Source: Anaspis maculata
Taxonomy: Eukaryota > Arthropoda > Insecta > Coleoptera > Scraptiidae
Direction: 5' to 3'
DNA: 64,000 bases
Assembly: GCA_949128115.1 (NCBI GenBank)
Contig: OX421966.1
Location: 64,229,416-64,293,415 of the forward strand
Made by a program: the position numbers and the translations under genes. Below the pieces are notes generated by a model. That model was given only the letters and a program-made list of their open reading frames with translations, was not told the DNA's origin and did no database searches. Below are positions 24,086 to 51,256 of the stretch, one piece after another (within the stretch, counting starts at the first letter, position 1; the number at the start of each line of letters is the position of its first letter).

Positions 24086-24299
24086 TTTAGTGAACATATT
24101 TCAAATAAAAATAACTACTTTTTTCTCAATATAACACCTCATTCCAGAATTCTCAGAAGGTTTTAGATAGTCTTTAGGTCTCTGGTGTTCACAAAATAAC
24201 AACAGAGATCTGGTTTTCAAAAAGATTGAAAAACATCTTCGACAATATTAGATGTAGAAAAAAAATTAAACGCTGTATAATGTTTTCATTTTCCTCAAA

Positions 24300-28923: not shown

Positions 28924-28932
28924 CTCTTTCGT
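28924..28932. repeat. 9-bp target-site duplication, left
   Basis: CTCTTTCGT, identical to 51248-51256 and directly abutting the inverted-repeat tip. Confidence 0.85.
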
Positions 28933-29440
28933 ACGTGTGTGAAGATAGCTCCTAGGAGCTGGCTCCTTTCGCCAGCTCCTGTCACTGCATTTGAGTGCAT
29001 ATCAGAGACCGCCCTCGCGCCGGTTTTCAGGAGCCAGTTTATCAAGAAATTGCGGCCGCATTCACGCCGACCAATAATTTCGTGTTTTGGGAATAGAAAA
29101 TTAGAAAAGCGCGTTTCCTAACAACCAACCATTATGAAAGTGAGTTCTTGTTGAAACTAGCATTATTTGCACTTTTTCACCTATGTAATAAATCTTTTGG
29201 GGTAATTTGCCCTCGAGTATGTGTAGGCATAGGTACCTACTCGATTTGCAGATTCCGTAATCCAGGGGCTTTGTCTAAAGCAAATAGGTACTTACTATCA
29301 GTAGGTAGATACCTACCTCTATGATAGGTACCTACCATAATATAAACCTATACTTACCTTGCCATATTGTCTTGATCCCATACTTCCCTTCCACAAAAAA
29401 AAAATACTCACAAAAAATATATTCCGATTCATGGAGGCTT
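28933..29440 (+). repeat. Left terminal inverted repeat, unique part
   Basis: About 508 bp, near-identical to the complement of 50735-51247. It carries a small perfect palindrome (AGCTCCTAGGAGCT) close to the tip and a run of GTAGGTACCTA-like motifs near 29235-29335, both conserved in the right arm. It passes directly into satellite units. Confidence 0.85.
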
Positions 29441-32400
29441 GAAAGGGATGAAGCCTACATACATGTGTTGAGACTCACCGCAGTTTCAAGGTGTCACAAA
29501 CTTCCGTTCCATGGAAAAAAAATAAAACAAAAACCAATATGTTCTAATCCAAGGGGCGACCTAAAGGGATGAAGCCTACTTACATTTTTTCTGTAAATTT
29601 CCCAGGCCGTTCACAGTGACATGTGTTAAAACTCACCGCAGTTTCAAGGTGTCACAAACTTCCGTTTTATAGAAAAAAAAATTAAAACAGAAAAATCATA
29701 CATGTGTATATTCATGGGCGAGTTAAGGGATGAAGCCTACATACAATTTTTCTGTAAATTTCCCAGGCCGTTTACAGTGACATGTGTTGAAACTCACCGC
29801 AATTTCAAGGTGTCACAAACTTCCGTTCCATGGAAAAAAAATTAAAACAAAAACCAATATGTTCTAATTCAAGGGGCGACCTAAAGGGATGAAGCCTACA
29901 TACAATTTTTCTGTAAATCTCCCAGGCCGTTCACAGTGACATGTGTTGAAACTCACCGCAGTTTCAAAGTGTCACAAACTTCCGTTCCATGAAAAAAAAA
30001 AAAAACAAAAACCAATATGTTCTAATTCAAGGGGCGACCTAAAGGGATGAAGCCTACATACAATTTTTCTGTAAATTTCCCAGGCCGTTCACAGTGACAT
30101 GTGTTGAAACTCACCGCAGTTTCAAAGTGTCACAAACTCCCGTTCCATGGAAAAAAAAATAAAACAAAAACCAATATGTTCTAATTCAAGGGGCGACCTA
30201 AAGGGATGAAGCCTACATACAATTTTTCTGTAAATTTCCCAGGCCGTTCACAGTGACATGTGTTGAAACTCACCGCAGTTTCAAGGTGTCACAAACTTCC
30301 GTTCCATGGAAAAAAAATTAAAACAAAAACCAATATGTTCTAATTCAAGGGGCGACCTAAAGGGATGAAGCCTACATACAATTTTTCTGTAAATTTCCCA
30401 GGCCGTTCACAGTGACATGTGTTAAAACTCACCGCAGTTTCAAGGTGTCACAAACTTCCGTTTTATAGAAAAAAAAATTAAAACAGAAAAATCATAACAT
30501 GTATATTCATGGGCGAGTTAAGGGATGAAGCCTACATACAATTTTTCTGTTAATTTCCCAGGCCGTTTACAGTGACATGTGTTGAAACTCACCGCAATTT
30601 CAAGGTGTCACAAACTTCCGTTCCATGGAAAAAAAATTAAAACAAAAACCAATATGTTCTAATTCAAGGGGCGACCTAAAGGGATGAAGCCTACATACAA
30701 TTTTTTTGTAAATTTCCCAGGCCGTTAACAGTGACATGTGTTGAAACTCACCGCAATTTCAAGGTGTCACAAACTTCCGTTCCATGGAAAAAAAATTAAA
30801 ACACAAAACAATATGTTCCAATTCAAGGGGCGACCTAAAGGGATGAAGCCTACATACAATTTTTCTGTAAATTCCCCAAGACGTTCACAGTGACATGTGT
30901 TGAGACTCACCGCAGTTTCAAGGTGTCACAAACTTCCGTTCCATGGAAAAAAAATTAAAACAAAAAACAATATGTTCTAATTCAAGAGGCGACCTAAAGG
31001 GATGAAGCCTACATACAATTTTTCTGTAAATTTCCCAGGCCGTTTACAGTGACATGTGTTGAAACTCACCGCAATTTCAAGGTGTCACAAACTTCCGTTC
31101 CATGGAAAAAAAATTAAAACAAAAACCAATATGTTCTAATTCAAGGGGCGACCTAAAGGGATGAAGCCTACATACAATTTTTCTGTAAATCTCCCAGGCC
31201 GTTCACAGTGACATGTGTTGGAACTCACCGCAGTTTCAAAGTGTCACAAACTTCCGTTCCATGAAAAAAAAAATAAAACAAAAACCAATATGTTCTAATT
31301 CAAGGGGCGACCTAAAGGGATGAAGCCTACATACAATTTTTCTGTAAATTTCCCAGGCCGTTCACAGTGACATGTGTTGAAACTCACCGCAGTTTCAAAG
31401 TGTCACAAACTTCCGTTCCATGGAAAAAAAAAATAAAACAAAAACCAATATGTTCTAATTCAAGGGGCGACCTAAAGGGATGAAGCCTACATACAATTTT
31501 TCTGTAAATTTCCCAGGCCGTTCACAGTGACATGTGTTGAAACTCACCGCAGTTTCAAGGTGTCACAAACTTCCGTTCCATGGAAAAAAAATTAAAACAA
31601 AAACCAATATGTTCTAATTCAAGGGGCGACCTAAAGGGATGAAGCCTACATACAATTTTTCTGTAAATTTCCCAGGCCGTTCACAGTGACATGTGTTAAA
31701 ACTCACCGCAGTTTCAAGGTGTCACAAACTTCCGTTTTATAGAAAAAAAAATTAAAACAGAAAAATCATAACATGTATATTCATGGGCGAGTTAAGGGAT
31801 GAAGCCTACATAGAATTTTTCTGTAAATTTCCCAGGCCGTTTACAGTGACATGTGTTGAAACTCACCGCAATTTCAAGGTGTCACAAACTTCCGTTCCAT
31901 GGAAAAAAAATTAAAACAAAAACCAATATGTTCTAATTCAAGGGGCGACCTAAAGGGATGAAGCCTACATACAATTTTTTTGTAAATTTCCCAGGCCGTT
32001 AACAGTGACATGTGTTGAAACTCACCGCAATTTCAAGGTGTCACAAACTTCCGTTCCATGGAAAAAAAATTAAAACACAAAACAATATGTTCCAATTCAA
32101 GGGGCGACCTAAAGGGATGAAGCCTACATACAATTTTTCTGTAAATTCCCCAAGACGTTCACAGTGACATGTGTTGAGACTCACCGCAGTTTCAAGGTGT
32201 CACAAACTTCCGTTCCATGGAAAAAAAATTAAAACAAAACACAATATGTTCTAATTCAAGAGGCGACCTAAAGGGATGAAGCCTACATACAATTTTTCTG
32301 TAAATTTCCCAAGCCGTTTACAGTGACATGTGTTGAAACTCACCGCAGTTTCAAAGTGTCACAAACTTCCGTTCCATGGAAAAAAAATTAAAACAAAAAA

Positions 32401-33563
32401 CAATATGTTCCAATTCAAGGGGCGACCTAAAGGGATGAAGCCTACATACAATTTTTCTGTAAATTTCCCAGGCCGTTCACAGTTACATGTGTTGAAACTC
32501 ACCGCAGTTTCAAGGTGTCACAATCTTCCGTTCCATGGAAAAAAAATTAAAACAAAAACCAATACGTTCTAATTCAAGGGGCGACCTAAAAGGATGAAGC
32601 CTACATACAATTTTTCTGTAAATTTCCCAGGCCGTTCACAGTGACATGTGTTGAAACTCACCGCAGTTTCGAAGTGTCACAAACTTCCGTTCCATGGAAA
32701 AAAAATTAAAACAAAAAACATTATGTTCTAATTCAAGGGGCGACCTAAAGGGATGAAGCCTACATACAATTTTTCTGTAAATTTCCCAGGCCGTTCAAAG
32801 TGACATGTGTTGAAACTCACCGCAGTTTCGAAGTGTCACAAACTTACGTTCCATGGAAAAAAAATTGAAACAAAAACCAATACGTTCTAATTCAAGGGGC
32901 GACCTAAAGGGATGAAGCCTACAAACAATTTTTCTGTAAATTTCCCAGGCCGTTCACAGTTACATGTGTTGAAACTCACCGCAGTTTCAAAGTGTCACAA
33001 ACTTCCGTTCCATGGAAAAAAAATTAAAACAAAAAACAATATGTTCCAATTCAAGGGGCGACCTAAAGGGATGAAGCCTACATACAATTTTTCTGTAAAT
33101 TTCCCAGGCCGTTCACAGTTACATGTGTTGAAACTCACCGCAGTTTCAAGGTGTCACAAACTTGCGTTCCATAGGAAAAAAATTGAAACAAAAAACAATA
33201 TGTTCTAATTCAAGAGGCGACCTAAAGGGATGAAGCCTACATACAATTTTTCTGAAAATTTCCCAGGCCGTTCACAGTGACATGTGTTTAAACTCACCGC
33301 AGTTTCAAGGTGTCACAAACCTCCGTTCCATGGAAAAAAAAAATAAAACAAGAAACAATATGTTCTAATTCAAGGGGCGACCTAAAGGGATGAAGCCTAC
33401 ATACAGTTTTTCTGTAAATTTCCCAGGCCGTTCACATTGACATGTGTTGAGACTCACCGCAGTTTCAAGGTGTCACAAACTTCCGTTCCATGGAAAAAAA
33501 TTAAAACAAAAACCAATATGTTCTAATTCAAGGGGCGACCTAAAGGGTTGAAGCCTACATATA
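29441..33563 (+). repeat. Satellite array A, ~158-bp units, plus orientation (about 26 copies)
   Basis: The unit starts GGATGAAGCCTACATACAAT and includes AACTCACCGCAGTTTCAAGG, an A8 run and GGGGCGACCTAAAG. Units repeat every 158-159 bp. A variant with TTTTATAGAAAAA replaces the usual CCATGG at 29665, 30461 and 31735, spaced about 5 and 8 units, so the array has higher-order structure. Open frames here are by-products of the repeat. Confidence 0.95.
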
Positions 33564-35304
33564 GTAGAGGAAAATATGAAGCAAAATGTGCTTATTTGAG
33601 AAGTTCGTGTGCACGGAAAGGTAAAAAGCTGGGGTGCATTTTTTATGGTGTAGTATGGCTTGAGGATGAAGAATCCACTTGTCGTCAAAAAATCGTCCAG
33701 TGTGGGGGCGGTATGGGGGCGGTTTTGTGAAAAAACAGTTTTTTAAAAAAATGTTCTACAGTTTGTCAGCTTTTGGCTGATATTAGCTAGGAACAAATCC
33801 GTCAACTGTAAGTTGTCGTAAATAATTTATGAATAAAAAGGTGATCATTTACTTTGCCATTAGGATACACGTAAAACTTGACTGCCTCGTGCGCAAAGAA
33901 CGTTGAATATCTCAGTAACGTGTTGAATGACATTTTTCATTCCACTCCCACTCGATTATCTCCGTAACCACTAGTTCAATCAAAAAAGTTCCTTCTGTAA
34001 ACCATGTTACCTATTCCATTGCGATTCTTGCGGTTTTTTCAGATTTGATTTATCTTGAATAGTAACTGAGCTAGGGACGGAATTGTAATGTACTGCATGC
34101 AGCGAACAACTGCAGCGCTGAGGCCCTCGCGTACCCCTGCCACCCGCGCATCCCCGCGAAGGCCATGGTGTATTGAGGCGGGAAATCTGCAGACTTATTA
34201 TTGTGGCTGATGATCGAAACATTGTAAAAGTGTAGTCGGTAAATTTGCAATATAAATAAATATATACCCCTTGAATTACGACGTACGTCTTCACATATTA
34301 TAATGGTCCAGTCAAAATAGGTTTTAACCGGAAATAAATTCGGAAGTTGACGAAATTTGGTGGATCGATGCAGAATTGAACGTGGAATAACATACTGAAA
34401 TTCCCAAAAAGCTTGTTTTTTTTAGGACCAATAAAAAAGGGCCATCCTTGAAAATTTTCTTTTTTTCTGAATGGATTGTGAACTATTATCTCTTCAGAAC
34501 ACAGCACCAGCACCAGCAAAGCAAATGTAGCCCGTTAAATTCCCAAGAGATCGTACAAAACTCATCACTTTTTGGTCAATAGCCTCTGTGATATCGCGTC
34601 TACAAAAACGCAGTGAAAATTACTCAAAATATATTTCCGGATTTTATGTAAAAATATGCATGGTGTCAATTCAGGGGCTGTAACGTGGACAGCGAATGTG
34701 CGAATTTCAATGTGTTTTACATGCGGGAAAAGCTAATTCAACATTCGGTATCACACTTTTGTCTAGAAGTCAAGAAGTCGCCAACTTCAAAATGGTACTT
34801 TTCCTCGACCTGTGGAATCGATACTTGCTGTCTCGAAGAATCCCCAAAAATCGATTTTTTTCATACCATACTATTTGCCTCATTTTTCACTTAGGTAGAG
34901 CAAAACCATCCAGGGAAAATATGAAGAATTGAATACAGAAAAAATAACATGTTTCGGAATATTTATCCTATAGTGATGGTTTCTGAGTTGTATGGGTTGA
35001 AAGACTAAAACGACCTATTCAGAAAAAAAGGTAGTCCGGACACTAACTGCTGAATATTGTACTTGCATTTGATGATTGTTTTTAAATTCTTCAGATGTCA
35101 ATATAACATTTGTGATGCTGTCGTGGAAGAACGGACAAAAGAGCTTGATGGAAATGTATGGAATAATAGAGCTAATAATAATGGTACAAGGTGGGTGATA
35201 AATAATGAAAGCAGGATGGTTGACTAGATAGAGAAAAGGTTATTTGAATCAAAGGCGTTGTAAAAATGTTTAAAAGGGAAATCTATACAATCATTTAGGC
35301 AATT

Positions 35305-35817
35305 TTGGAAAGAATTATTAATCATATTCATCTAATCATCAAAATCATCTCAGAAAATCATAACTTCGTCCTTGGAACTAATTTTGAAATTTTACATGTT
35401 TGTAAAAAAGGACGGCTTTTAGATAGTATAGAGGTTCTTGAAATTTGTAAAGCAACTAATAATTCTGTCCGAAATTGCCTAAAAGATTGTATAGATTTCT
35501 TTTTTAAACATTTTTACAACGCCTTTGATTTAAATAAGCTTTTTTCTTTCCATTCAACCATCCTTTCATTAATTCATCACCCACCTTGTACCATTTTTAT
35601 TAGCTCTATTATTATTTCATGCATTTCCATCAAGTTCTTTTTTCCGTCCTTCCATGACAACATCACAAATGTTATACTGACATCTGAAGAATTTAAAAAC
35701 AATTCACTTATCATTCACACAAACTTTATCTTCACCATTTATACAATGTCGGTGATTCGGTGTGTTATCGTTCACCTTTTATGTACCTACCCACTTGTTT
35801 TATGTATTTTATTTTAG
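35305..35817 (+). pseudogene. Penelope-like element C-terminal (GIY-YIG) relic
   Basis: The frame reads SENHNFVLGTNFEILHVCKK then GRLLDSIEVLEICKA. This 'NHxF...ILHxxxKGxxLxxLExxEI' pattern is what I associate with the C-terminal GIY-YIG endonuclease region of Penelope-like elements. The reverse transcriptase is absent. Past the match the frame runs into low-complexity sequence. Part of the coding DNA (about 35480-35710) is mirrored in the left arm of the palindrome. Confidence 0.55.
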
Positions 35818-35821
35818 ACTC

Positions 35822-35868
35822 CACACTTTGATGAAGAAGGGCCAGAGACCTGCGAAACCGGTCAGAAA
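35822..35868 (+). ncRNA. Candidate decayed hammerhead-ribozyme-like motif
   Basis: TTTGATGA (35827-35834), a small hairpin-capable stretch AGGGCCAGAGACCT, then GCGAAAC (35852-35858) followed by CGGTC. This is close to the hammerhead core CUGAUGA-stem II-GAAA, except that the first core C is U here. Penelope-like elements are known to carry hammerhead motifs, and this lies just past a Penelope-like relic. The cleavage-site strand was not located. Confidence 0.25.
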
Positions 35869-36406
35869 TAAAAACAATCAATTTGAAGGAAGACTGCGTG
35901 TAGATCATTCTATTTATGAAAAAAATCGATTTTTGCGGGTTCTTCGGGACATCAAGTATCGATTTCAAAGGTCGAGAAAAAGTACCATTTTGAAGTTGGT
36001 GACTTCTAAACAAAAGTGTGATACCGAATGTAGAAAAAACACATTGAAATTCGCACATTCGCTGTCCACGTTACAGCCCCTGAATTGACACCATGCATAT
36101 TTTTACAGAAAATCCGGAAATATATTTTGAGTAATTTTCACTGCGTTTTTGTAGACGCGATATCACAGAGGCTATTGACCAAAAAGTGATGAGTTTTGTA
36201 CGATCTCTTGGGAATTTAACGGGCTACATTTGCTTTGCTGGTGCTGGTGCTGTGTTCTGAAGAGATAATAGTTCACAAGCCATTCAGAAAAAAAGAAAAT
36301 TTTTAAGGATGGCCCTTTTTTATTGGTCCTAAAAAAAACAAGCTTTTTGGGAATTTCAGTATTTATTTCCGGTTAAAACCTATTTTGACTGGACTATTAT
36401 AATATA

Positions 36407-36435
36407 CGTACGTCGTACGTACGTACGTACGTCGT
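36407..36435. repeat. ACGT microsatellite
   Basis: A short run of ACGT/TCGT repeats in the right arm of the palindrome; the left arm at about 34279 has only one or two copies, so it expanded on one side after the arms formed. Confidence 0.7.
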
Positions 36436-37139
36436 AATTCAAGAGGTATATATTTATTTATATTGCAAATTTACCGACTACACTTTTACAATGTTTCGAT
36501 CATCAGCCACAATAATAAGTCTGCAGATTTCCCGCCTCAATACACCATGGCCTTCGCGGGGATGCGCGGGTGGCAGGGGTACGCGAGGGCCTCAGCGCTG
36601 CAGTTGTTCGCTGCATGCAGTACATTACAATTCCGTCCCTAGCTCAGTTACTATTCAAGATAAATCAAATCTGAAAAAACCGCAAGAATCGCAATGGAAT
36701 AGGTAACATGGTTTACAGAAGGAACTTTTTTGATTGAACTAGTGGTTACGGAGATAATCGAGTGGGAGTGGAATGAAAAATGTCATTCAACACGTTACTG
36801 AGATATTCAACGTTCTTTGCGCACGAGGCAGTCAAGTTTTACGTGTATCCTAATGGCAAAGTAAATGATCACCTTTTTATTCATAAATTATTTACGACAA
36901 CTTACAGTTGACGGATTTGTTCCTAGCTAATATCAGCCAAAAGCTGACAAACTGTAGAACATTTTTTTAAAAAACTGTTTTTTCACAAAACCGCCCCCAT
37001 ACCGCCCCCACACTGGACGATTTTTTGACGACAAGTGGATTCTTAATCCCCAAGCCATACTACACCATAAAAAATGCACCCCAGCTTTTTACCTTTCCGT
37101 GCACACGAAAGTCACAATAGAGTCTCATTTTTCCTCTAC

Positions 37140-39600
37140 TAATACCATTTTTCTGTGAATTTCCCAGGCCGTTCACAGTGACATGTGTTGAAACTCACCG
37201 CAGTTTCAAGGTGTCACAAACTTCCGTTCCATGGAAAAAAAATTAAAACAAAAACCAATATGTTCTAATTCAAGGGGCGACCTAAAGGGTTGAAGCCTAC
37301 ATACAATTTTTCTGTAAATTTCCCAGGCCGTTCAAAATGACATGTGTTGAAACTCACCGCAGTTTCAAGGTGTCACAATCTTCCGTTCCATGGAAAAAAA
37401 ATTAAAACAAAAACCAATACGTTCTAATTCAAGGGGCGACCTAAAAGGATGAAGCCTACATACAATTTTTCTGTAAATTTCCCAGGCCGTTCACAGTGAC
37501 ATGTGTTGAAACTCACCGCAGTTTCGAAGTGTCACAAACTTCCGTTCCATGGAAAAAAAATTAAAACAAAAAACATTATGTTCTAATTCAAGGGGCGACC
37601 TAAAGGGATGAAGCCTACATACAATTTTTCTGTAAATTTCCCAGGCCGTTCAAAGTGACATGTGTTGAAACTCACCGCAGTTTCGAAGTGTCACAAACTT
37701 ACGTTCCATGGAAAAAAAATTGAAACAAAAACCAATACGTTCTAATTCAAGGGGCGACCTAAAGGGATGAAGCCTACAAACAATTTTTCTGTAAATTTCC
37801 CAGGCCGTTCACAGTTACATGTGTTGAAACTCACCGCAGTTTCAAAGTGTCACAAACTTCCGTTCCATGGAAAAAAAATTAAAACAAAAAACAATATGTT
37901 CCAATTCAAGGGGCGACCTAAAGGGATGAAGCCTACATACAATTTTTCTGTAAATTTCCCAGGCCGTTCACAGTTACATGTGTTGAAACTCACCGCAGTT
38001 TCAAGGTGTCACAAACTTGCGTTCCATAGGAAAAAAATTGAAACAAAAAACAATATGTTCTAATCCAAGAGGCGACCTAAAGGGATGAAGCCTACATACA
38101 ATTTTTCTGAAAATTTCCCAGGCCGTTCACAGTGACATGTGTTTAAACTCACCGCAGTTTCAAGGTGTCACAAACCTCCGTTCCATGGAAAAAAAAAATA
38201 AAACAAGAAACAATATGTTCTAATTCAAGGGGCGACCTAAAGGGATGAAGCCTACATACAGTTTTTCTGTAAATTTCCCAGGCCGTTCACATTGACATGT
38301 GTTGAGACTCACCGCAGTTTCAAGGTGTCACAAACTTCCGTTCCATGGAAAAAAATTAAAACAAAAACCAATATGTTCTAATTCAAGGGGCGACCTAAAG
38401 GGTTGAAGCCTACATACAATTTTTCTGTGAATTTCCCAGGCCGTTCACAGTGACATGTGTTGAAACTCACCGCAGTTTCAAGGTGTCACAAACTTCCGTT
38501 CCATGGAAAAAAAATTAAAACAAAAACCAATATGTTCTAATTCAAGGGGCGACCTAAAGGGTTGAAGCCTACATACAATTTTTCTGTAAATTTCCCAGGC
38601 CGTTCAAAATGACATGTGTTGAAACTCACCGCAGTTTCAAGGTGTCACAATCTTCCGTTCCATGGAAAAAAAATTAAAACAAAAACCAATACGTTCTAAT
38701 TCAAGGGGCGACCTAAAAGGATGAAGCCTACATACAATTTTTCTGTAAATTTCCCAGGCCGTTCACAGTGACATGTGTTGAAACTCACCGCAGTTTCGAA
38801 GTGTCACAAACTTCCGTTCCATGGAAAAAAAATTAAAACAAAAAACATTATGTTCTAATTCAAGGGGCGACCTAAAGGGATGAAGCCTACATACAATTTT
38901 TCTGTAAATTTCCCAGGCCGTTCAAAGTGACATGTGTTGAAACTCACCGCAGTTTCGAAGTGTCACAAACTTACGTTCCATGGAAAAAAAATTGAAACAA
39001 AAACCAATACGTTCTAATTCAAGGGGCGACCTAAAGGGATGAAGCCTACAAACAATTTTTCTGTAAATTTCCCAGGCCGTTCACAGTTACATGTGTTGAA
39101 ACTCACCGCAGTTTCAAAGTGTCACAAACTTCCGTTCCATGGAAAAAAAATAAAACAAAAACCAATATGTTCTAATTCAAGGGGCGACCTAAAGGGATGA
39201 AGCCTACATACAATTTTTCTGAAAATTTCCCAGGCCGTTCACAGTGACATGTGTTTAAACTCACCGCAGTTTCAAGGTGTCACAAACTTCCGTTCCATGG
39301 AAAAAAAAAAAACAAGAAACAATATGTTCTAATTCAAGGGGCGACCTAAAGGGATGAAGCCTACATACAATTTTTCTGTAAATTCCCCAAGCCGTTCACA
39401 GTGACATGTGTTGAGACTCACCGCAGTTTCAAGGTGTCACAAACTTCCGTTCCATGGAAAAAAATTAAAACAAAAACCAATATGTTCTAATTCAAGGGGC
39501 GACCTAAAGGGATGAAGCCTACATACAATTTTTCTGTGAATTTCCCAGGCCGTTCACAGTGACATGTGTTGAAACTCACCGCAGTTTCAAGGTGTCACAA
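37140..39600 (+). repeat. Satellite array B, plus orientation (about 15 copies)
   Basis: Same ~158-bp unit as array A. The unit variant CTAAAAGGATGAAG occurs near 32587 (array A), 37441 and 38711, about 1,270 bp (8 units) apart within B. The variants around each copy follow the same order, so B contains copies of a multi-unit block also present in A. The array stops inside a unit after GGTGTCACAA. Confidence 0.95.
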
Positions 39601-39814
39601 AGGACACTATCTGGTTTGGGCGAATTTTGGGCCCGGCGCAATAGGTTTTTCTCAAATTGTGGTCGATTAGCTGCCGTACTTGCTTATATCAAATCTAAAT
39701 GTTACTAAGGTAGTGATTTTGAACAATTATGCATGATTTTTCACTTCCCGGTTGTTTTCGAAGTGATTAATTTCAAGAAGAAAAAAAGCTCATAACTGGG
39801 CCTGGACTCACATC

Positions 39815-41085
39815 AGGTAGGTAGTAGGTAGGTTTTGAAATGTCGATAACTTCTTCATTTTTCAAAATATTTGAATAATTCTTTGCTAATATTGAAGGAG
39901 AAACATGGGAAATTTGTCATGAAAGATGTAGAAGATCATATTCATTGAATGTCGTCCGCATGCCTCTACACAAAAACGCCATTTTCCTGGCCGTTATTAC
40001 CCGAGACGGTCACTCACCCTGGCTTTGACTAGGAATACCCGCGTTTGGTGCAGAACTCTACTCAGATGCCTTTTTCTGCTCGTAGATCGCTTTCTCTCAG
40101 TAAATTTCAACTGATATCAAAAGTAGATTACATTGGGCGTCGTGCGGGCCTATTTTCGAACTCGACACGGTTTCCATTTTCCGACGGTGATTTGTTCAAA
40201 ATGAAACTTGAACATTTCGTGAATTAGAAAAAATGCAATGCGAATCTCGACCTGCGGTAAGCCACACGAAATATTTATTTTAGGTACAGACTTGCTGCAA
40301 ATCATAGTTAGGGAAAAGGTTGAATTGAGTTTCGTGAGAAAAATTTTTGAAATCGGACTAACGGTTTTCGAGTTTTCCTCCTTAGAATAACTGCATATTT
40401 TCAACTTTTCGACCCGTAATCAGATTTTCATCAATTGTTTTTTTAACGAGGCGTTACTGGTTCTTGAACTTATCCGACAATTTCTGTCAAAATTCTTTTA
40501 ATTTTCCGAGAGTTTCCTTCCCATTAGAAAATGCAAAACTGGCCTAGCTTATCGGAGCCGGACTCAAATGATAAACTTGAATAAAGCCTCAACTACTGAC
40601 GATTTTTACAATGGTTTTATTTGGAAAAGCTTCGTGGTTTTCAGCAAAATTGTCCCATGTTTGCATCTGATTTCAATTATTAATCACAGCCTGCCTATCT
40701 TCATGTCGCTTGGTCCTTCAAAATTGTTATTGTAGGATTTTCAGATAGCAGAGTAGGTAGATATGTAGATAACTTTTGAATTTTTCAATATATTTGAATA
40801 ATTCTTTTTCAATCTTGAAGAAGAAACAAGGGAAATCCGTTACATTACGTGTGAAAAATCATATCCATCAAAGGCTGTCCGCATGCCTTTACACAAAAAA
40901 CGTATTTTTCCTGGCCGTTACTACCCGAGACGGCCGCTCACCCTGGCTTTGACTAGAAATACCCGCGTTTGGTGCAGGACTCTACTCAATTTGTTCTTTT
41001 CTGCTTTTACATCAACTCTTTTCAAAAAATTTCAACCAATATCTAAAGTAGATTTCATTGGGCGTCGTGTAGAACTGTTTTCATA
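39815..41085. repeat. Diverged direct repeat pair, offset about 0.92 kb
   Basis: 39815-40160 and 40750-41085 share blocks such as TTTGACTAGGAATACCCGCG (with small changes), CCTGGCCGTTA and TTGGGCGTCGTG. They are separated by unrelated AT-rich DNA. No coding function recognised. Confidence 0.65.
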
Positions 41086-41645
41086 TAGAATAGAATAGAA
41101 TAGGATAGAATAGAATAAAATAGAATTTTATTTGTACGGGGCCAAAGTGTCGGATGTACACGTCAAACAATAAATAAATAAATAATTAACATCATGAACA
41201 ATGTTGATTCGACAGTAACATACTATCACAGATAAAATTACAAATCACATAACATATACTCGTGGACAGAGTAGAAACAATGGAACAGCAGCAGATCCTT
41301 GACATGTTTAGGAAATTCTTTGGAGGTCATGCATAGTTTTGAACTCATGTGGTAGCTTATTATACATTTGTATACCCCTGTAACTGGGAGACCTTTCATA
41401 CTGACTAGAATTATGACTAGATCTGACTAAAGAATGTCGGTGCCTTCGACACGGTTTCAGTTTACCTGATAGCCCGATCGCGGAAGCTCTAGAGACTTTC
41501 ATCAGCTTTGCGAATATTTTGGTATCCCTCAAATAACGGCTCCTCCACCAATAATGCATTATCTGTCTTATTTGCGCATCGTGATCTCCAGCGAGTTTCG
41601 TAGTACTGACTCCCCTCCCTAAAATCTGTTCGTCCCGAGCAAGCA
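41085..41645 (-). pseudogene. LINE 3' end (reverse transcriptase C-terminus) on the minus strand
   Basis: Minus-strand frame 41308-41646 includes RSSHNSSQYERSPSYRGIQM followed by YNKLPHEFK, the 'SFxYRGxxxYNxLP' segment at the C-terminus of many CR1/RTE-like LINE reverse transcriptases. The 3' tail on the minus strand is a TTCTA-type microsatellite (seen on the plus strand as ATAGA repeats, 41087-41128). It is 5'-truncated. Confidence 0.7.
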
Positions 41646-41892
41646 CTTCGTTATTCCTGGACGTTTTTACTTTTGATCACGGTGTACGGTTCCTCCCACT
41701 CCTTTTTTGCGTTGTGGTTGTACAGTCATATAATGTTACCTTCTTGAAATCCTCCAGAGTTGGCTTCCAAGTTGTATAGCGTTATTCGCGTTTTCATCCG
41801 TCGGTCACAATACGGATCCCTTGTATTCTGAAACGGTTATTGGCTCATCCTCAGGTCTGCCAAACTTTCGTTTAGTAACAATATAACAATAT

Positions 41893-41931
41893 TGTTACCA
41901 GCGGCGATCCCGTACGCGAAATATCGTAACA
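41893..41931 (+). repeat. 5' mini-LTR (39 bp)
   Basis: TGTTACCAGCGGCGATCCCG and onwards to CGTAACA. Its start and end match the start and end of the ~0.5-kb solo LTR at 24944-26486, as if the LTR interior had been deleted. Confidence 0.75.
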
Positions 41932-42012
41932 TTTGGTGTCAGAAAGCGGTAAAATTGAGAGTAATTCGGCCTGCGACTACAGGACGTTCGGAACATTCGT
42001 GATTTGGTAAAT

Positions 42013-43010
42013 GCCGGAGACGAGAAGCATGTCGAAGACAGGAGTCGAAGACGCTTTGGCGAGCATCATGGCGATGATGCAAGAACAAAAGACGAAACGC
42101 CAGGCAGAGAAAGAAGAACAGGAGAAGAGGCGTTTGGAAGATAAAGAAGATTGAAGAATCTTCTGGAAGGACAGGAAAAAGGATTGAAAAATCTTTTACA
42201 AGAACAGCGTCTAGAAGACAAAGAAGAACTGAGAAACCTGCTGGAAGAACAGGAAAAGATACGCCTGGAGAAAATGGAAGAAATATTAGCCGTTGTGGAA
42301 CAACAAACGCGGTATTTCGACGGCAGCGTGAGCAAGCTAGAAAAATAAGTGGAAGCGGTGAAGGCCAACATGACGAAGCTGGAGCAACAGGTTCAGAAAA
42401 CCACCGCCAGTGCTGCGATGGTCAGTTCAGCGGGTGTCCAACGTGTGAAGCTGCCAAACTTCGATGGGAAAAGCCCATGGACAACCTATAAGAGACAGTT
42501 CGATGCCGCTGCCGAAGCAAACGGATGGAGCGACGATGAGAGAGCCACAGCTCTAGTCCTGGCTCTCATAGGCTCAGCATTGGAGCTGCTCCAGACGATT
42601 CCTGAGAGTGAGCAGGAGGACTTTGCCAAGCTGACGAGGGACCTGGAGCTTCGGTATGGGGACAATCATGTGCGGCAGATCCATCAAACCCAGCTGAAGG
42701 CCAGAACCCAAAAGAGCGGAGAAAGCCTTCAGGAATTCGAATCCAAAGTCCTGAGGCTGGTTTACCTGGCCTATCCAGCTCATCCAGCGGATGTTTTGAC
42801 CGACATCGCCAAGAAAACTTTCATGGGCGGAATAAAACATCCAGAATTGCGTCAGATGGTCATGATCAGCAATCCAGCCAACATCAGCGACGCACTCATC
42901 CAAGCTATTCGCATCGAGGCTGCCAAGGATGCTTCGCGCCCTCATCGTTTTAGGGAGGTGAACTTTAACGAATCCAGAGCATCACATGCTCCCGAAGTCG
43001 TTGAAGGAGA
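42013..43010 (+). pseudogene. gypsy gag remnant
   Basis: Probable original start at ATG 42013. A Lys/Glu-rich coiled-coil-like N-terminus is broken by a TGA (about 42151) with a frame change, and by a TAA near 42346. Then about 220 open codons carry the capsid-like segment VKLPNFDGKSPWTTYKRQF and LKARTQKSGESLQEFESKV, typical of insect gypsy Gag. A further frame change separates it from the zinc knuckles. Not translatable as one protein. Confidence 0.8.
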
Positions 43011-43590
43011 TGTTTGAGGAACTTCTCAGCGCCATGTCTCGGAACAGACCCCAAGGCGAGCCAAGAGCTGGAGGAAGACCGCGTTGCTTCGGCTGTGGAA
43101 GAACGGGACATCTTCGTCGGGACTGCAGGCAATGGTCGAGTTCAGCAGACTGTTTCATAGCGGAACGGAGAACGATCTCGACTGCTGATCGAGAAAGTCA
43201 CCAACCAAGAGAAAGCAATCGTAGAGGAGGAAGATCACGTTGCTTTGAATGTGGAAGGGACGGACATCTGCAACGCGACTGCAGGCGACGATACGCTTGA
43301 GCAGACTTCATTTTGGAACGGGAAGCTGCTGATCGAGGAGGTCATCAGTCGAAAGAAAGCAATCGCACAGGAGGAAGGCTGCGTTGCTCCAATTGTGGAA
43401 AGAATGGCCATCTGCAGCGTGATTGCTGGCAACCGTACCGTTCAGCAGATCGCTCCAGGCTGGAACGGGGAGCTGCTGATCAAGGAAGTGAACATCGTCC
43501 TGGAAGGAGTCATGATAATGGCAACACAGATGGTCTTTCTCGAAGACCACGCACCGAGGACTGGAGGCACGACAAGAGGGTAGACCAGCA
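43010..43590 (+). pseudogene. gypsy nucleocapsid region with three zinc knuckles
   Basis: Three CCHC knuckles: CFGCGRTGHLRRDC (about 43086), CFECGRDGHLQRDC (about 43230) and CSNCGKNGHLQRDC (about 43385). Each is CX2CX4HX4C and sits in a repeated ~145-150-bp module beginning with an Arg-Gly-Gly-Arg stretch, so the module appears tandemly triplicated. The third is in another frame from the first two. Confidence 0.8.
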
Positions 43591-44240
43591 GAATGGGAAC
43601 GTCGAAATCAAAGCACTTGTCTTTGAAACCCCGAGAAATTGGACTACGGCTGAGCTCAAGAAAGAGCAGCGTAAGGACCCAGCCATCGGTTTGCTTGCTT
43701 AAAGAAAAGAACTTGGCCAGGAAAGACCAGAATGGGCCGAGATATCTGGTGAAGGGCCCCACTTCAAGGCTCTTTGGGCTCGGTGGAATTCTCTGAGAAT
43801 AGAGAACGGGTTGCTGAAGAGAGTCTAGGAGAGTCCCGATGGGAAGAAAGAGATGGCTCAATTGGTGCTTCCAAAGAAGAGAGTGAAGGAGGTCCTAGAA
43901 AAAATGCACAATGGCGTCACTGGGGGGCACCTTGGGGTGAACAAGACGTTGGACAAGGTGCGCGAGCGGTTCTACTGGGTGAACTACCGGAACGACGTGG
44001 AAACATGGTGTCGTCAGTGCAAGGTTTGTGCGGTCAGCAAGGACCAAGAACTCGCAGCCGAGGAGAGTTAAAAACGCGTTACAACTTAAAGACGAACTCC
44101 ACGGGATTTCAAGCAGGTGACCTGGTCTGGTTGTACAATCCTCAGCGCGAGAAAGGAAGGTCTCCAAAGTTGCATCTGTCGTGGAAAGGACCGTACACGG
44201 TAGTCAAGAGGATTATTGACGTCGTGTACAGAATCTAGCG
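43590..44240 (+). pseudogene. gypsy integrase remnants (HHCC and C-terminal module)
   Basis: From about 43594 an RNase H-integrase linker-like stretch. Then the HHCC zinc-binding domain, with HNGVTGGHLGVNKTLDKV and CRQCKVC (about 43900-44030). The catalytic DDE core is absent: the sequence passes directly to the C-terminal module with GDLVWLYNP and LHLSWKGPYTVVKRI (about 44110-44215), the GPY/F-type motif of gypsy integrases. An internal deletion and a stop at about 44236 make it inactive. Confidence 0.8.
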
Positions 44241-44345
44241 GGCCCCGAAAGCCAAGATAAAAGTTGCCCACCTTGATCACCTTGCACGTTACTCCGGGAG
44301 TAACGATGAGCCTATTCGGGACGAACAGGCTCAAGAGGGGGGCAG

Positions 44346-44384
44346 TGTTACGAGCGGCGATCCCGTACGCAAAAAATCGTTACA
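44346..44384 (+). repeat. 3' mini-LTR (39 bp)
   Basis: TGTTACGAGCGGCGATCCCG and onwards to CGTTACA. Same length as the 5' copy and directly preceded by the polypurine tract, which supports the boundary. Confidence 0.75.
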
Positions 44385-44399
44385 ATATTAACAATATAA

Positions 44400-45780
44400 T
44401 ATGATATAACTTACATAATATAACAAACGTTCATATCTCTTGACCAAAGAGAACTTCGCCAATGTTCCGTCTCCTATCCGCCATTTTTAATTTTGACATT
44501 TTGGCGATTTCCAAACTGGTGTTTATAACCGGCTGAACTTAGTAGATTGCTGTTACAAAAAAAAATCGTTAAAATCGATCAATAAGTGAAAAATGGCAGG
44601 TGAGAAACTAACATGTAACTAAGTAATAGTCGATGCATATCTAAGAAAGTGATCAACAAACCTATTTGAAATCGATATATCTTCACAACTGATGAACCGA
44701 TTAAACTCGATGTGATCCTCAAATGCAAGGCAAAGTTCATTCTTCCCAATTCTGTCTATTGTTTTGTAATTTTGATATTTCTTGACCAAGCGTCGTGGTC
44801 GGCAGTGTTCCGTCTTACAACCACCATTTTGAATTCTGACATTTTGACCATTTCAAAACTGGTGTTTGTAGCCGATTCAATTAGATAGGCACTGAAGCAA
44901 ATATAGTTTGAATTGACAAATAAATAAAAATGGCAGGCGAGAAACTAATCAATGACTGCGTTCTTATCGCAGCTTTGGATCCGATCGAAACTCTATCCGA
45001 TCGGGTCGATCCGCTTGAAACAGCCAATATAAACTGTCGGGATTGAGATTTCAATCGGATCGAGGAGTTCAAGTCGATCCGGTGCTTTGGCCGGCTTGAC
45101 TTGAGTCGAGCGGATCGAGGCTTGCATCCGCTCGTATTTCACCCAATGTGAACGGGATGGGATTGAAGTGACAGATGACCAACTTGTAAACAAAGAGTTA
45201 TTTTTACGAAATCAAGGGATGCCTTCCAGTAATAGTGAATAATAACACCAAGAAAATTCAAAATTATTATCTTTTCCGGTTGGCGCAGTTTGACGCGTTT
45301 TAAACCATGTTGTTGTCTCTCATAAATTCTAACCTAATTCTAAAGTAGTGAAATAGGATTGAGCGAAGCGGATCGAACGTGCGACGATAAAAACGCGCTT
45401 GACTGGGGCCACTCTGGATCCGATCGAAACTCGAACGGGTCGAACGCTGCGATAGAAACGCAGTCAATAAAATAAGTAATCAACCTTTATTTTAAATCGC
45501 TATATCTTTGTACAGGATGAACCGATTTGGGTCGTTGTTGTTTTGGTTTGTTAGAGGAAATCTGTTCTTCCCAAAACCATCATTATAGCTACCATCGCAA
45601 GAATCGCAAGAGCGTTTATAAAAAATGAACGAGCTCAAAAAATGGTATATTTTTACTTGGCTCCGCCATTTTGAATCTTGACGTTTCGTCCATTTTGTTG
45701 CTTGACTTTTACAACCTATTCATTTGACTATTCAGTGATACTTAGTTTGCTGAAATCGGAGGAATAACAAATATTTGGCG
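44400..45780. repeat. Diverged ~350-bp tandem repeat, interrupted by a MITE
   Basis: GGCAGGTGAGAAACTAAC near 44593 and GGCAGGCGAGAAACTAATC near 44932 head equivalent copies. The block CCATTTTGAATTCTGACATT near 44822 returns with changes near 44482 and 45667. The third copy is displaced by the MITE at 44953-45466. Confidence 0.6.
44953..45466. mobile_element. MITE with TGACTGCG tips (514 bp)
   Basis: Ends TGACTGCGTTCTTATCGCAG and reversed TGACTGCGTTTCTATCGCAG. GATCGGATCGA-type blocks recur inverted inside. The insertion interrupts the tandem repeat between CTAATCAA and ATAAAATAAG. The duplication length is ambiguous because the tips are self-similar. Confidence 0.75.
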
Positions 45781-46333
45781 AGGAAAATAAAGCAGTCAGG
45801 TTTTTGCTAGGCCCACCCAGTAGGTACGTCCCTTTTATGATGAGTAACACTTGTATTTCAGGTACATTTGAGAAACAGTTCGAGATATCTCAAAGTGGTT
45901 TGTTCCACACCAATGAGCATGAGATGAGGAGTATGTGTGCTAATTTTCATGTTCCGACCTATTTTGGTTCATAAAACAGAATTTCTCGATTTTTGATCAC
46001 CCTGTAGGCATCTGCAAAAGAGTTACCATCGTAGAGACACAGTTCGAAATAAGGGCATTGGTCCGTATTACAATCCTGCCGGATGGCATCGCGATACCAC
46101 GGGAAGCAACTTTCAGGCCATTCCAAGCGAAAACATCTGTTCGATTCATAGGATCATAATAACCTGGGATAGTGGAGAAGAAAAAATTTTTTTTGATGAT
46201 GATCCCCACATGACTGTTTTTTGTAACTTTGCCTATTTGAAGATTGGCACCTTTCCAATATATGACAAAAAAATGGTGAAACAGTCATAAGGGCCTTGTG
46301 AGGCCCAAAACCTCGACGACTTCGATTGTATTC
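45781..46333. other. Unassigned stretch before satellite array C
   Basis: A lone foldback-type end (GATCACCCTGTAG, about 45998-46008) occurs here. Minus-strand frames between 46345 and 45997 are open and moderately Cys-rich, but no family was recognised. The stretch ends where satellite sequence resumes. Confidence 0.35.
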
Positions 46334-48520
46334 TTTCCGTTCCATGGAAAAAAAATTAAAACAAAAACCAATATGATCTAATTCAAGGGGCGACCTAAAG
46401 GGTTGAAGCCTACATACAATTTTTCTGTAAATTCCCCAGGCCGTTCAAAGTGACATGTGTTGAAACTCACCGCAGTTTCAAGGTGTCACAAACTTCCGTT
46501 CCATGGGAAAAAAATTAAAACAAAAACCAATATGTTCTAATTCAAGGGGCGACCTAAAGGGATGAAGCCTACATACAATTTTTCTGTAAAGTTCCCAGGC
46601 CGTTCAAAGTGACATGTGTTGAAATTCACCGCAGTTTCGAAGTGTCACAAACTTCCGTTCCATGGAAAAAAAATTAAAACAAAAAACATTATGTTCTAAT
46701 TCAAGGGGCGACCTAAAGGGATGAAGCCTACATACAATTTTTCTGTAAATTTCCCAGGCCGTTCAAAGTGACATGTGTTGAAACTCACCGCAGTTTCAAG
46801 GTGTCACAAACTTTCGTTCCATGGGAAAAAAATTAAAACAAAAACCAATATGTTCTAATTCAAGGGGCGACCTAAAGGGATGAAGCCTACATACAATTTT
46901 TCTGTAAAGTTCCCAGGCCGTTCAAAGTGACATGTGTTGAAATTCACCGCAGTTTCGAAGTGTCACAAACTTCCGTTCCATGGAAAAAAAATTAAAACAA
47001 AAAACATTATGTTCTAATTCAAGGGGCGACCTAAAGGGATGAAGCCTACATACAATTTTTCTGTGAATTTCCCAGGCCGTTCACAGTGACATGTGTTGAA
47101 ACTCACCGCAGTTTCAAGGTGTCACAAACTTCCGTTCCATGGAAAAAAAATTAAAACAAAAAACAATATGTTCCAATTCAAGGGGCGACCTAAAGGGATG
47201 AAGCCTACATACAATTTTTCTGTAAATTTCCCAGGCCGTTCACAGTTACATGTGTTGAAACTCACCGCAGTTTCAAGGTGTCACAAACTTGCGTTCCATA
47301 GGAAAAAAATTGAAACAAAAAACAATATGTTCTAATTCAAGAGGCGACCTAAAGGGATGAAGCCTACATACAATTTTTCTGAAAATTTCCCAGGCCGTTC
47401 ACAGTGACATGTGTTTAAACTCACCGCAGTTTCAAGGTGTCACAAACCTCCGTTCCATGGAAAAAAAAATAAAACAAGAAACAATATGTTCTAATTCAAG
47501 GGGCGACCTAAAGGGATGAAGCCTACATACAGTTTTTCTGTAAATTTCCCAGGCCGTTCACATTGACATGTGTTGAGACTCACCGCAGTTTCAAGGTGTC
47601 ACAAACTTCCGTTCCATGGAAAAAAATTAAAACAAAAACCAATATGTTCTAATTCAAGGGGCGACCTAAAGGGTTGAAGCCTACATACAATTTTTCTGTG
47701 AATTTCCCAGGCCGTTCACAGTGACATGTGTTGAAACTCACCGCAGTTTCAAGGTGTCACAAACTTCCGTTCCATGGAAAAAAAATTAAAACAAAAACCA
47801 ATATGTTCTAATTCAAGGGGCGACCTAAAGGGTTGAAGCCTACATACAATTTTTCTGTAAATTTCCCAGGCCGTTCAAAGTGACATGTGTTGAAACTCAC
47901 CGCAGTTTCAAGGTGTCACAATCTTCCGTTCCATGGAAAAAAAATTAAAACAAAAACCAATACGTTCTAATTCAAGGGGCGACCTAAAAGGATGAAGCCT
48001 ACATACAATTTTTCTGTAAATTTCCCAGGCCGTTCACAGTGACATGTGTTGAAACTCACCGCAGTTTCGAAGTGTCACAAACTTCCGTTCCATGGAAAAA
48101 AAATTAAAACAAAAAACATTATGTTCTAATTCAAGGGGCGACCTAAAGGGATGAAGCCTACATACAATTTTTCTGTAAATTTCCCAGGCCGTTCAAAGTG
48201 ACATGTGTTGAAACTCACCGCAGTTTCGAAGTGTCACAAACTTACGTTCCATGGAAAAAAAATTGAAACAAAAACCAATACGTTCTAATTCAAGGGGCGA
48301 CCTAAAGGGATGAAGCCTACAAACAATTTTTCTGTAAATTTCCCAGGCCGTTCACAGTGACATGTGTTGAAACTCACCGCAGTTTCGAAGTGTCACAAAC
48401 TTCCGCTCCATGGAAAAAAAATTAAAACAAAAATCATTATGTTCTAATTCAAGGGGCGACCTAAAGGGATGAAGCCTACATACAATTTTTCTGTAAATTT
48501 CCCAGGCCGTTCAAAGTGAC
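46334..48520 (+). repeat. Satellite array C, plus orientation (about 14 copies)
   Basis: Same unit as arrays A and B, including the CTAAAAGGATGAAG variant (near 47981) in the same variant order. It ends abruptly at 48520 within a unit, where the orientation flips without a spacer. Confidence 0.95.
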
Positions 48521-50734
48521 CCCTTGAATTAGAACATATTGGTTTTTGTTTTAATTTTTTTCCACGGAACGGAAGTTTGTGACACCTTGAAACTGCGGTG
48601 AGTCTCAACACATGTCACTGTGAACGGCTTGGGGAATATACAGAAAAATTGTATGTAGGCTTCATCCCTTTAGGCCGCCCCTTGACTTAGAACATATTGT
48701 TTCTTGTTTTATTTTTTTTTCCATGGAACGGAAATTTGTGACACCTTGAAACTGCGGTGAGTTTAAACACATGTCACTGTGAACGGCCTGGGAAATTTTC
48801 AGAAAAATTGTATGTAGGCTTCATCCCTTTAGGTCGCCTCTTGAATTAGAACATATTGTTTCTTGTTTTATTTTTTTTTTCCATGGAACGGAGGATTGTG
48901 ACACCTTGAAACTGCGGTGAGTTCAAACACATGTCACTGTGAACGGCCTGGGAAATTTTCAGAAAAATTGTATGTAGGCTTCATCCCTTTAGGTCGCCTC
49001 TTGAATTAGAACATATTGTTTTTTGTTTCAATTTTCTTCCTATGGAACGCAAGTTTGTGACACCTTGAAACTGCGGTGAGTTTCAACACATGTAACTGTG
49101 AACGGCCTGGGAAATTTACAGAAAAATTGTATGTAGGCTTCAACCCTTTAGGTCGCCCCTTGAATTAGAACATATTGGTTTTTGTTTTAATTTTTTTTCC
49201 ATGGAACGGAAGTTTGTGACACCTTGAAACTGCGGTGAGTTTCAACACATGTCACTGTGAACGGCCTGGGAAATTCACAGAAAAATTGTATGTAGGCTTC
49301 ATCCCTTTAGGTCGCCCCTTGAATTAGAACATATTGGTTTTTGTTTTATTTTTTTTTCCATGGAACGGAAGTTTGTGACACTTTGAAACTGCGGTGAGTT
49401 TCAACACATGTCACTGTGAACGGCCTGGGAAATTTACAGAAAAATTGTATGTAGGCTTCATCCCTTTAGGTCGCCCCTTGAATTAGAACGTATTGGTTTT
49501 TGTTTTGATTTTTTTTCCATGGAACGGAAGTTTGTGACACCTTGAAACTGCGGTGAGTTTCAACACATGTCACTTTGAACGGCCTGGGAAATTTACAGAA
49601 AAATTGTATGTAGGCTTCAACCCTTTAGGTCGCCCCTTGAATTAGAACATATTGGTTTTTGTTTTAATTTTTTTTCCATGGAACGGAAGTTTGTGACACC
49701 TTGAAACTGCGGTGAGTTTCAACACATGTCACTGTGAACGGCCTGGGAAATTCACAGAAAAATTGTATGTAGGCTTCATCCCTTTAGGTCGCCCCTTGAA
49801 TTAGAACATATTGGTTTTTGTTTTAAGTTTTTTTCATGGAACGGAAGTTTGTGACACCTTGAAACTGCGGTGAGTTTCAACACATGTCACTGTGAACGGC
49901 CTGGGAAATTCACAGAAAAATTGTATGTAGGCTTCATCCCTTTAGGTCGCCCCTTGAATTAGAACATATTGGTTTTTGTTTTAAGTTTTTTTCATGGAAC
50001 GGAAATTTGTGACACCTTGAAACTGCGGTGAGTTTAAACACATGTCACTGTGAACGGCCTGGGAAATTTTCAGAAAAATTGTATGTAGGCTTCATCCCTT
50101 TAGGTCGCCTCTTGAATTAGAACATATTGTTTCTTGTTTTATTTTTTTTTCCATGGAACGGAGGATTGTGACACCTTGAAACTGCGGTGAGTTCAAACAC
50201 ATGTCACTGTGAACGGCCTGGGAAATTTTCAGAAAAATTGTATGTAGGCTTCATCCCTTTAGGTCGCCTCTTGAATTAGAACATATTGTTTTTTGTTTCA
50301 ATTTTCTTCCTATGGAACGCAAGTTTGTGACACCTTGAAACTGCGGTGAGTTTCAACACATGTAACTGTGAACGGCCTGGGAAATTTACAGAAAAATTGT
50401 ATGTAGGCTTCAACCTTTAGGTCGCCCCTTGAATTAGAACATATTGGTTTTTGTTTTAATTTTTTTTCCATGGAACGGAAGTTTGTGACACCTTGAAACT
50501 GCGGTGAGTTTCAACACATGTCACTGTGAACGGCCTGGGAAATTCACAGAAAAATTGTATGTAGGCTTCATCCCTTTAGGTCGCCCCTTGAATTAGAACA
50601 TATTGGTTTTTGTTTTAAGTTTTTTTCATGGAACGGAAGTTTGTGACACCTTGAAACTGCGGTGAGTCTCAACACATGTCAATGTGAACGGCCTGGGAAA
50701 TTTACAGAAAAATTGTATGTAGGCTTCATCCCTT
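48521..50734 (-). repeat. Satellite array D, minus orientation (about 14 copies)
   Basis: Reverse-complement units start at CCCCTTGAATTAGAACATAT and continue to the right terminal inverted repeat. With array C it forms a head-to-head palindrome of about 2.2 kb per arm with no loop; with array A it forms the inner part of the giant element's inverted repeats. Confidence 0.95.
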
Positions 50735-51247
50735 TCAAGCCTCCATGAATCGGAATATATTTTTTGTGAGTATTTTTTTTTGTGGAAGGGAAGTATGGGA
50801 TCAAGACAATATGGCAAGGTAAGTAGGTATAGGTTTATATTATGGTAGGTACCTATCATAGAGGTAGGTATCTACCTACTGATAGTAAGTACCTATTTGC
50901 TTTAGACAAAGCCCCTGGATTACGGAATCTGCAAATCGAGTAGGTACCTATGCCTACACATACTCGAGGGCAAAATACCCCAAAAGATTTATTACATAGG
51001 TGAAAAAGTGCAAATAATGCTAGTTCCAACAAGAACTCACTTTCATAATGGTTGGTTGTTAGGAAACGCGCTTTTCTAATTTTCTATTCCCAAAACACGA
51101 AATTATTGGTCGGCGTGAATGCGGCCGCAATTTCTTGATAAACTGGCTCCTGAAAACCGGCGCGAGGGCGGTCTCTGATATGCACTCAAATGCAGTGACA
51201 GGAGCTGGCGAAAAGAGCCAGCTCCTAGGAGCTATCTTCACACACGT
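50735..51247 (-). repeat. Right terminal inverted repeat, unique part
   Basis: Reverse-complement counterpart of 28933-29440 with a few substitutions and short indels. At the satellite junction it keeps a stretch (AATTTTTCTGTAAATTTCCC and more) that the left arm lacks, so the left arm has a small deletion just inside. Confidence 0.85.
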
Positions 51248-51256
51248 CTCTTTCGT
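51248..51256. repeat. 9-bp target-site duplication, right
   Basis: CTCTTTCGT, identical to 28924-28932 and directly abutting the reversed tip. Confidence 0.85.

Follow-up and report, generated by a model that had tools for sequence, protein, structure and literature searches.

Foldback (FB) elements of Drosophila possess long arms of tandem repeats with units of 10-31 bp, generate a 9-bp target duplication and often lack a core. Target duplications have other lengths in some further groups of elements: 7 bp in Galileo and 6 bp in Polintons, while Helitrons are not known to produce any. The presence of satellites in the termini of foldback and Rehavkus elements is already known, from Tetris of Drosophila virilis (PMC4079207) and Rehavkus-1_TC of Tribolium (PMC10218199). 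The marks described for Rehavkus are a PHD finger, 9-bp duplications and minisatellites beside the terminal inverted repeat (TIR) (PMC6446971), and in Rehavkus-1_TC the 164-bp satellite TCsat23 is located in the inverted termini (PMC10218199). Mutator-like elements are described as generating 8-11-bp duplications (PMC6446971); for arthropods, TIRs of up to 1193 bp and complete elements of 1875-9972 bp have been reported (PMC6446971, PMC13359780).

We analysed a locus of the beetle Anaspis maculata in which satellite arrays form the arms of an element with such features. The window, i.e. the whole stretch of DNA that was analysed, comprises 64,000 nucleotides (contig OX421966.1 of assembly GCA_949128115.1, positions 64,229,416 to 64,293,415). 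The element within it is very probably a non-autonomous DNA transposon of the foldback type, belonging to a Mutator/Rehavkus-like clan, whose satellite arms move together with it, whose core has presumably been lost and which received inserts at a later time. Its features are as follows (window coordinates).

28924..28932, no strand: left 9-bp target-site duplication, CTCTTTCGT
28933..29375, plus strand: left TIR, the part outside the satellite, with tip ACGTGTGTGAAGATAGCTCC followed by dyad AGCTCCTAGGAGCT
29376..29463, plus strand: degenerate boundary monomer of 88 bp, 75% alike to the satellite unit
29461..33561, plus strand: left arm block 1, 159-bp satellite array
33562..37141, no strand: first insert, a palindromic element nested in the array, with tips TAGTAGAGG..CCTCTACTA
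37142..39601, plus strand: left arm block 2, 159-bp satellite array
39602..46334, no strand: composite insert in the array, containing a decayed LTR retrotransposon
41893..44384, plus strand: LTR retrotransposon remnant inside the second insert, with terminal repeats, a duplication and gag/integrase pieces
46335..48520, plus strand: left arm block 3, 159-bp satellite array, up to the head-to-head junction
48520..50800, minus strand: right arm, 159-bp satellite array
50801..51247, minus strand: right TIR
51248..51256, no strand: right 9-bp target-site duplication, CTCTTTCGT

The initial annotation had described matching inverted ends, an exact 9-bp direct duplication and opposed arrays of a satellite of ~158 bp, all of which were confirmed. 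The ends are 98.4% identical over 447 bp and carry the same tip, which occurs once per strand, at 28933 (+) and 51247 (-). When the outer 440 bp of the TIRs are aligned, 433 positions match; 3 of the 436 aligned bases are substituted, and there are 2 gaps. The non-array TIR is 443 bp long. The duplicated 9-mer lies directly outside both ends of the element, at 28924-28932 and 51248-51256, with an additional third copy at 51661; by our own estimate, about 0.24 occurrences are expected by chance per 64 kb per strand. The measured period of the satellite is 159 bp, with 55 unit starts on the plus strand and 14 on the minus strand, and the two arrays meet head to head at 48520 without a unique core. 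Once the inserts are subtracted, the arms are unequal (about 9.3 versus 2.7 kb).

Palindromes joined head to head, like satellites, are notoriously difficult to assemble, and a locus of this kind might be an assembly artefact, produced by a read-through hairpin or a collapsed satellite. We find this hardly credible, since the best mirror alignment across the centre at 48520 is 94.5% identical over 1440 columns and is 61 bp out of phase, the window contains zero Ns, and the terminus recurs at eight further loci, of which four are flanked by perfect 9-bp duplications that differ from the one in the window. The ungapped mirror identity across the centre is 27% over 300 bp.

Dyads within the satellite unit were also considered as specially conserved sites and were rejected: TTGAAACT..AGTTTCAA ranked only 56th of 138 windows compared and TTCCATGGAA only 130th of 150, while ACATGT is invariant, yet other windows are equally so (rank 16 of 154). 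Rfam and tRNA scans gave no useful result.

The initial annotation took the element to be 22.3 kb in length, and this value had to be revised. The first insert (33562-37141) has arms of about 1.28 kb with 91% identity and is flanked by a 3-bp duplication, ATA (33559-33561/37142-37144). At the ends of the second insert (39602-46334) no target duplication was recognised; the retrotransposon remnant inside it has terminal repeats no longer than 39 bp (TGTTAC...) and a duplication of 4 bp (ATAT), and it retains gag pieces, integrase zinc-binding pieces and the sequence TGGTGTCAGAA, which we take to be a PBS-like motif. When both inserts were cut out in silico, the spacing of the units at the joins was 160 and 158 bp. 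At the first join the mean unit identity was 0.993 at lag 8 (7 unit pairs). At the second, lag 16 gave 0.981 (12 pairs) and lag 24 gave 0.998 (4 pairs), whereas lag 8 showed no rise (0.943, 7 pairs); this, like the unrecognised duplication, counts against the reading adopted here. Over the entire left arm, the identity at multiples of 8 was 0.945, a value matched by none of 2000 shuffles. An 8-unit higher-order period continues through the joins, at the second of them at lags 16 and 24 and not at lag 8. Since the joins keep both the register and this period, the array is older than the inserts, and the element which moved was therefore about 12 kb or smaller. The 22.3 kb of the window copy consist of a foldback of about 12 kb and 10.3 kb in two inserts; as a transposed length, 22.3 kb was rejected because removal of the inserts restores the repeat register.

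The proposal that the element is mobile was supported by a search of the host assembly (757.8 Mb, 50 contigs) with the 528-bp left terminus, which matched nine loci, on C1, C3, C4, C6 and C7. Five copies of this family (family A), the window copy included, have perfect and mutually different 9-bp duplications, and a sixth has an imperfect one. The outcome that the initial annotation had named as refuting its proposal, a terminus lacking further copies with 9-bp duplications of their own, thus did not occur.

Window copy: perfect 9-bp duplication, CTCTTTCGT
C4:23120278-23130091: perfect 9-bp duplication, ACAAAACTA
C7:31118622-31125537: perfect 9-bp duplication, GGTTGGAAT
C1:132346828-132351936: perfect 9-bp duplication, AACCTTGGG
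C1:98521120-98571528: perfect 9-bp duplication, AAACCGCGT
C7:31515845-31522399: imperfect duplication, ATGGAAGTA/ATGGAACGTA

At C1:44581746-44623093 the match stops short of the tip at both ends, and C1:19457445 and C3:89318318 are single ends, the latter without a tip. Where the opposed arrays meet, their matched parts are no more than about 20 bp apart in the five copies compared (the window copy and four sisters), and the sequence of the central junction is private to each copy (5/5). Faithful copying of a core-less parent would give one shared junction, and the presumed loss of the core would therefore fall during or after insertion. The number of TIR substitutions within family A ranges from 0/440 (C1:132.35) to 14/438 (C7:31.52); 10/329 were counted in the 50-kb copy and 15/250 in locus L054. 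As TIR divergence varies between copies, the insertions differ in age. That the TIRs of the window copy are so alike although its inserts have decayed fits either conversion between the arms or inserts that had decayed beforehand or were carried along.

The copies at C1:98.5 (L038-L041) and C1:44.6 (L043-L045) also contain another satellite (about 327 bp), in about 45 and 53 copies in these two giant copies and in opposite orientation, whose motif looks by eye like window positions 53350-53573. The latter is one of seven further palindromes in the window, which measure 0.2-1.1 kb and differ in their tips (1629-1926, 23000-24086, 25020-26054, 26978-27786, 35075-35703, 52439-52977 and 53350-53573). 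The window also contains, at 56180-59773, a LINE ORF of 1197 aa with endonuclease, reverse transcriptase and RNase H, whose best eight database relatives are 42-46% identical.

The initial annotation had further suggested that the element carries, spreads and possibly seeds satellite DNA. Carriage and spread are borne out: all 89 reported matches of a 637-bp array piece in the assembly lie inside the nine TIR-bearing loci. The same search found no 159-bp array outside the elements, and seeding elsewhere was therefore not seen for this satellite. It should be borne in mind that the search scores the best candidates (all 18 of them in its first pass) and skips very common words, so that its counts are lower bounds and it leaves some room for a very abundant free array. 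Tip and satellite patterns searched in viral_contigs, and the satellite pattern in genome_contigs, gave 0 matches.

Comparison of 182 units from five copies revealed mean identities of 0.930 within an arm, 0.929 between arms and 0.925 between elements; the near equality of the first and last values means that satellite variants have been carried along with the elements. The nearest neighbour of a unit was found in the same arm for 82.8 of the 182 units (25.8 expected), and this excess is the mark of local block duplication. For either arm of the window copy the best lag was 8 units; the other copies gave other values.

Family A is part of a wider clan, which we defined in the host assembly by matches to the 20-bp tip with no more than 3 mismatches. 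The tip was found at 92 forward and 91 reverse sites, as against 5 and 7 for a reversed-pattern control. Among the 100 sites listed of these 183, we recognised by eye 39 pairs of opposed tips, at distances of 0.5-51 kb, and 22 single tips. Thirty-two of the 39 pairs were sampled (six of family A, six as whole elements and 20 as left end plus right flank), and 27 of them have a perfect 9-bp duplication, expected by chance at about 5e-6 per pair; all 27 are mutually different. The duplicated sites have a GC content of 34% and no strong consensus. Conserved inverted tips together with a duplication of fixed length that differs from site to site, in 27/32 pairs, identify these elements as TIR DNA transposons, and long inverted arms of tandem repeats with little or no core place the window copy, four sister copies, L049 and L050 in the foldback class.

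Of the five pairs without a perfect duplication, three have an imperfect one (a family A copy, L069 with 7/9 and L073 with 8/9) and two (L051 and L053) have inverted-repeat flanks, the palindromes running past the clan tips, so that the inverted repeat does not end there. These two palindromes, together with the unequal arms and the missing core, could point to an inverted satellite locus formed by rearrangement rather than by transposition. Such an origin is contradicted by dozens of opposed tip sites and by private 9-bp duplications in 27 of the 32 sampled pairs, and we regard it as very improbable. The length of the duplication also bears on three other candidate identities: a P-superfamily foldback of the Galileo type, a Polinton, and a Helitron or Helentron with repeats at its centre. 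Galileo is likewise described with tandem repeats in its TIRs (PMC4079207), and Helitrons/Helentrons are presented as a common case of expanding internal arrays (PMC12628747). However, 9 bp in 27/32 pairs does not agree with any of the three, and no Polinton replication gene was found in the three ORFs of the window element that were scanned; we consider these identities very unlikely. A transposon of the Mutator/Rehavkus-like foldback type is the reading that we retain.

Of the 20 sampled left ends, 15 have a satellite-length array at most 870 bp from the tip, and five have none within this distance. Six subfamilies of the clan, selected by the tip, each carry a satellite of their own.

Subfamily A: satellite unit 159 bp
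Subfamily B: satellite unit 174 bp
Subfamily C: satellite unit 163 bp
Subfamily D: satellite unit 159 bp
Subfamily E: satellite unit 155 bp
Subfamily F: satellite unit 179 bp

None of the 15 pairs of satellites is more similar than the maximum of 200 shuffles. The scores of the closest pairs were reached by 8 (A-D), 9 (C-F), 10 (B-F) and 13 (B-D) of the 200 shuffles, which is ordinary for 15 tests; at this level a remote kinship is still conceivable. The TIRs give a different picture, since 14 of the 15 subfamily pairs score above the maximum of 100 shuffles, while D-F ties with it. Because the elements were sampled by their first 20 bp, likeness there is not independent evidence; in most pairs it reaches about 28-39 bp, in B-C and E-F 85-90 bp, and between D and each of A, B, C and F it extends barely beyond 20 bp. 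The non-array parts of the TIRs measure 113-581 bp in the subfamilies other than A. In each of the six subfamilies the tip is followed by a dyad (GCTCC..GGAGC, and GCACC..GGTGC in D). The matched change on both sides in D, a single event, suggests that the subterminal dyad itself is probably under constraint. Locus L095 (C7:46733500-46737499) is the middle of an 11-kb element with the 174-bp satellite; its opposed arrays are about 90 bp apart, and no coding core was found in these 4 kb.

The subfamilies with different satellites link this lineage to repeated satellite gain; six different satellites in the same slot would imply at least five births or replacements. Whether the arm is a satellite nursery, which keeps the length of the unit (155-179 bp) but not its sequence and uses transposition as a vehicle, seems to us an evenly balanced question. 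Alternatively, a pre-existing satellite might have replaced the inner TIR in each subfamily, so that the satellites would be captured and only spread by the arms. The mutual dissimilarity of the six satellites (no pair above shuffles) speaks for capture, and so does the observation that five of the six are unlike their own non-array TIR, where most have no visible source. On the other hand, no satellite A array was found outside the elements, the inner TIR end of B resembles its unit (score 39, shuffle maximum 28), and the 88-bp boundary stretch of A is 75% alike to the unit; both resemblances fit growth from the TIR, although a decayed edge monomer would look no different. We regard capture as a serious, if somewhat doubtful, possibility.

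No transposase was found in the elements. The three ORFs of the window element that were scanned contain pieces of LTR retrotransposons or nothing, and no MULE DDE transposase (PF10551) was detected in them. Two divergent copies, C1:44.6 (c1_44) and C1:19.46 (c1_19), have a common stretch of 646 columns (94.6% identical) with a degenerate piece of a C48/Ulp1-type protease (PF02902; E 3.5e-8 in c1_44 and 4.8e-5 in c1_19, the latter scored for C48 only). In c1_44 a PHD-like motif is located beside this piece (PF00628, E 0.0016, 18.9 bits, below the cut-off of 24). A protein search with one Ulp1/PHD piece found no relatives, and in a search of solved structures the best match was Sentrin-specific protease 5 (E 0.075). 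As a link to Rehavkus, these pieces are suggestive only.

A gene of three ORFs in c1_98 (L037:3606-8029, minus strand) was considered as a clan transposase and rejected, as it lies inside a separate nested transposon; it gave one weak Pfam match below the cut-off, and nothing in the protein search. This transposon (L037, about 1986-11841), nested in a 159-bp array, has a TIR match of 522 bp (96.4%), a 5-bp duplication CATTG and a decanucleotide minisatellite GTATTTCCAA; its three minus-strand ORFs have no Pfam match above the cut-off, and for the one of 736 aa no homolog was found.

The likeness to Foldback and Mutator suggested in the initial annotation agrees with the long TIRs and the duplication; no transposase was found. 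FB elements, as generally described, share with the clan the repeat arms, the 9-bp duplication and the frequent lack of a core, and differ in their shorter repeats. The 9-bp duplication of the clan also falls within the 8-11 bp reported, together with long TIRs, for Mutator-like elements (PMC6446971, PMC13359780), from which the clan differs in that no Mutator transposase was found in the ORFs of the window element, and also in size, complete arthropod elements being given as 1875-9972 bp.

Rehavkus is similar in its 9-bp duplication, inverted termini and tandem repeats beside the TIR (PMC10218199, PMC6446971). The 164-bp satellite of Rehavkus-1_TC is close in length to the clan satellites of 155-179 bp (PMC10218199), and the PHD finger described for Rehavkus (PMC6446971) may have a counterpart in the weak PHD-like motif of one divergent clan copy. 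The TIR of the window copy (443 bp) exceeds the 26-400 bp given for Rehavkus, although this is a reported range and hardly diagnostic (PMC10218199, PMC6446971). Rehavkus-1_TC is described as 9.5 kb in length with mostly five and eight monomers (PMC10218199), whereas the window copy has 55 and 14 unit starts. The clan further differs from Rehavkus-1_TC in having no core and six different satellites, and the likeness is one of structure.

Tetris, as it has been described, resembles the clan in its foldback structure, in the satellite-like repeats of its TIRs and in duplication inside the arrays (PMC4079207). Its target duplications are 8-10 bp and no autonomous copy of it was found (PMC4079207), as none was found for the clan. 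A likeness of 37 bp between TIR and repeat is reported for Tetris (PMC4079207), and subfamilies A and B also show likeness between TIR and unit. Compared by description, Tetris has one satellite family with a 220-bp unit (PMC4079207), whereas the clan has six satellites. The Tetris repeat was found alone in 39 assembly contigs, yet no such array was seen by fiber-FISH (PMC4079207); for satellite A, the search of the assembly found no array outside the elements. The open-access literature searched contained no clan with a single tip type and six different satellites of similar length in one slot.

These observations can be combined in one scheme. Insertion occurs through a 9-bp staggered cut, presumably made by a trans-acting Mutator/Rehavkus-type transposase that works on the tip and the subterminal dyad, and the satellite arrays, as arms of the element, travel along at transposition. 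During or after insertion the core is presumably deleted between the opposed arrays, which would join these head to head; the resulting junction is private to the copy. The arrays turn over through block duplication, perhaps with exchange between the arms, and transposons that landed in them later have inflated the length of the element.

To conclude, satellite DNA can be traced here copy by copy as transposition carries it. A property of the arm, such as nucleosome length or hairpin replication and repair, possibly sets the length of the unit whatever its sequence. With one clan, six satellites and insertions of different age, the question of whether transposons give birth to satellites becomes a comparative test, for which the handles are the different ages of the subfamilies, the passing of units from insertion to insertion, and private higher-order periods.
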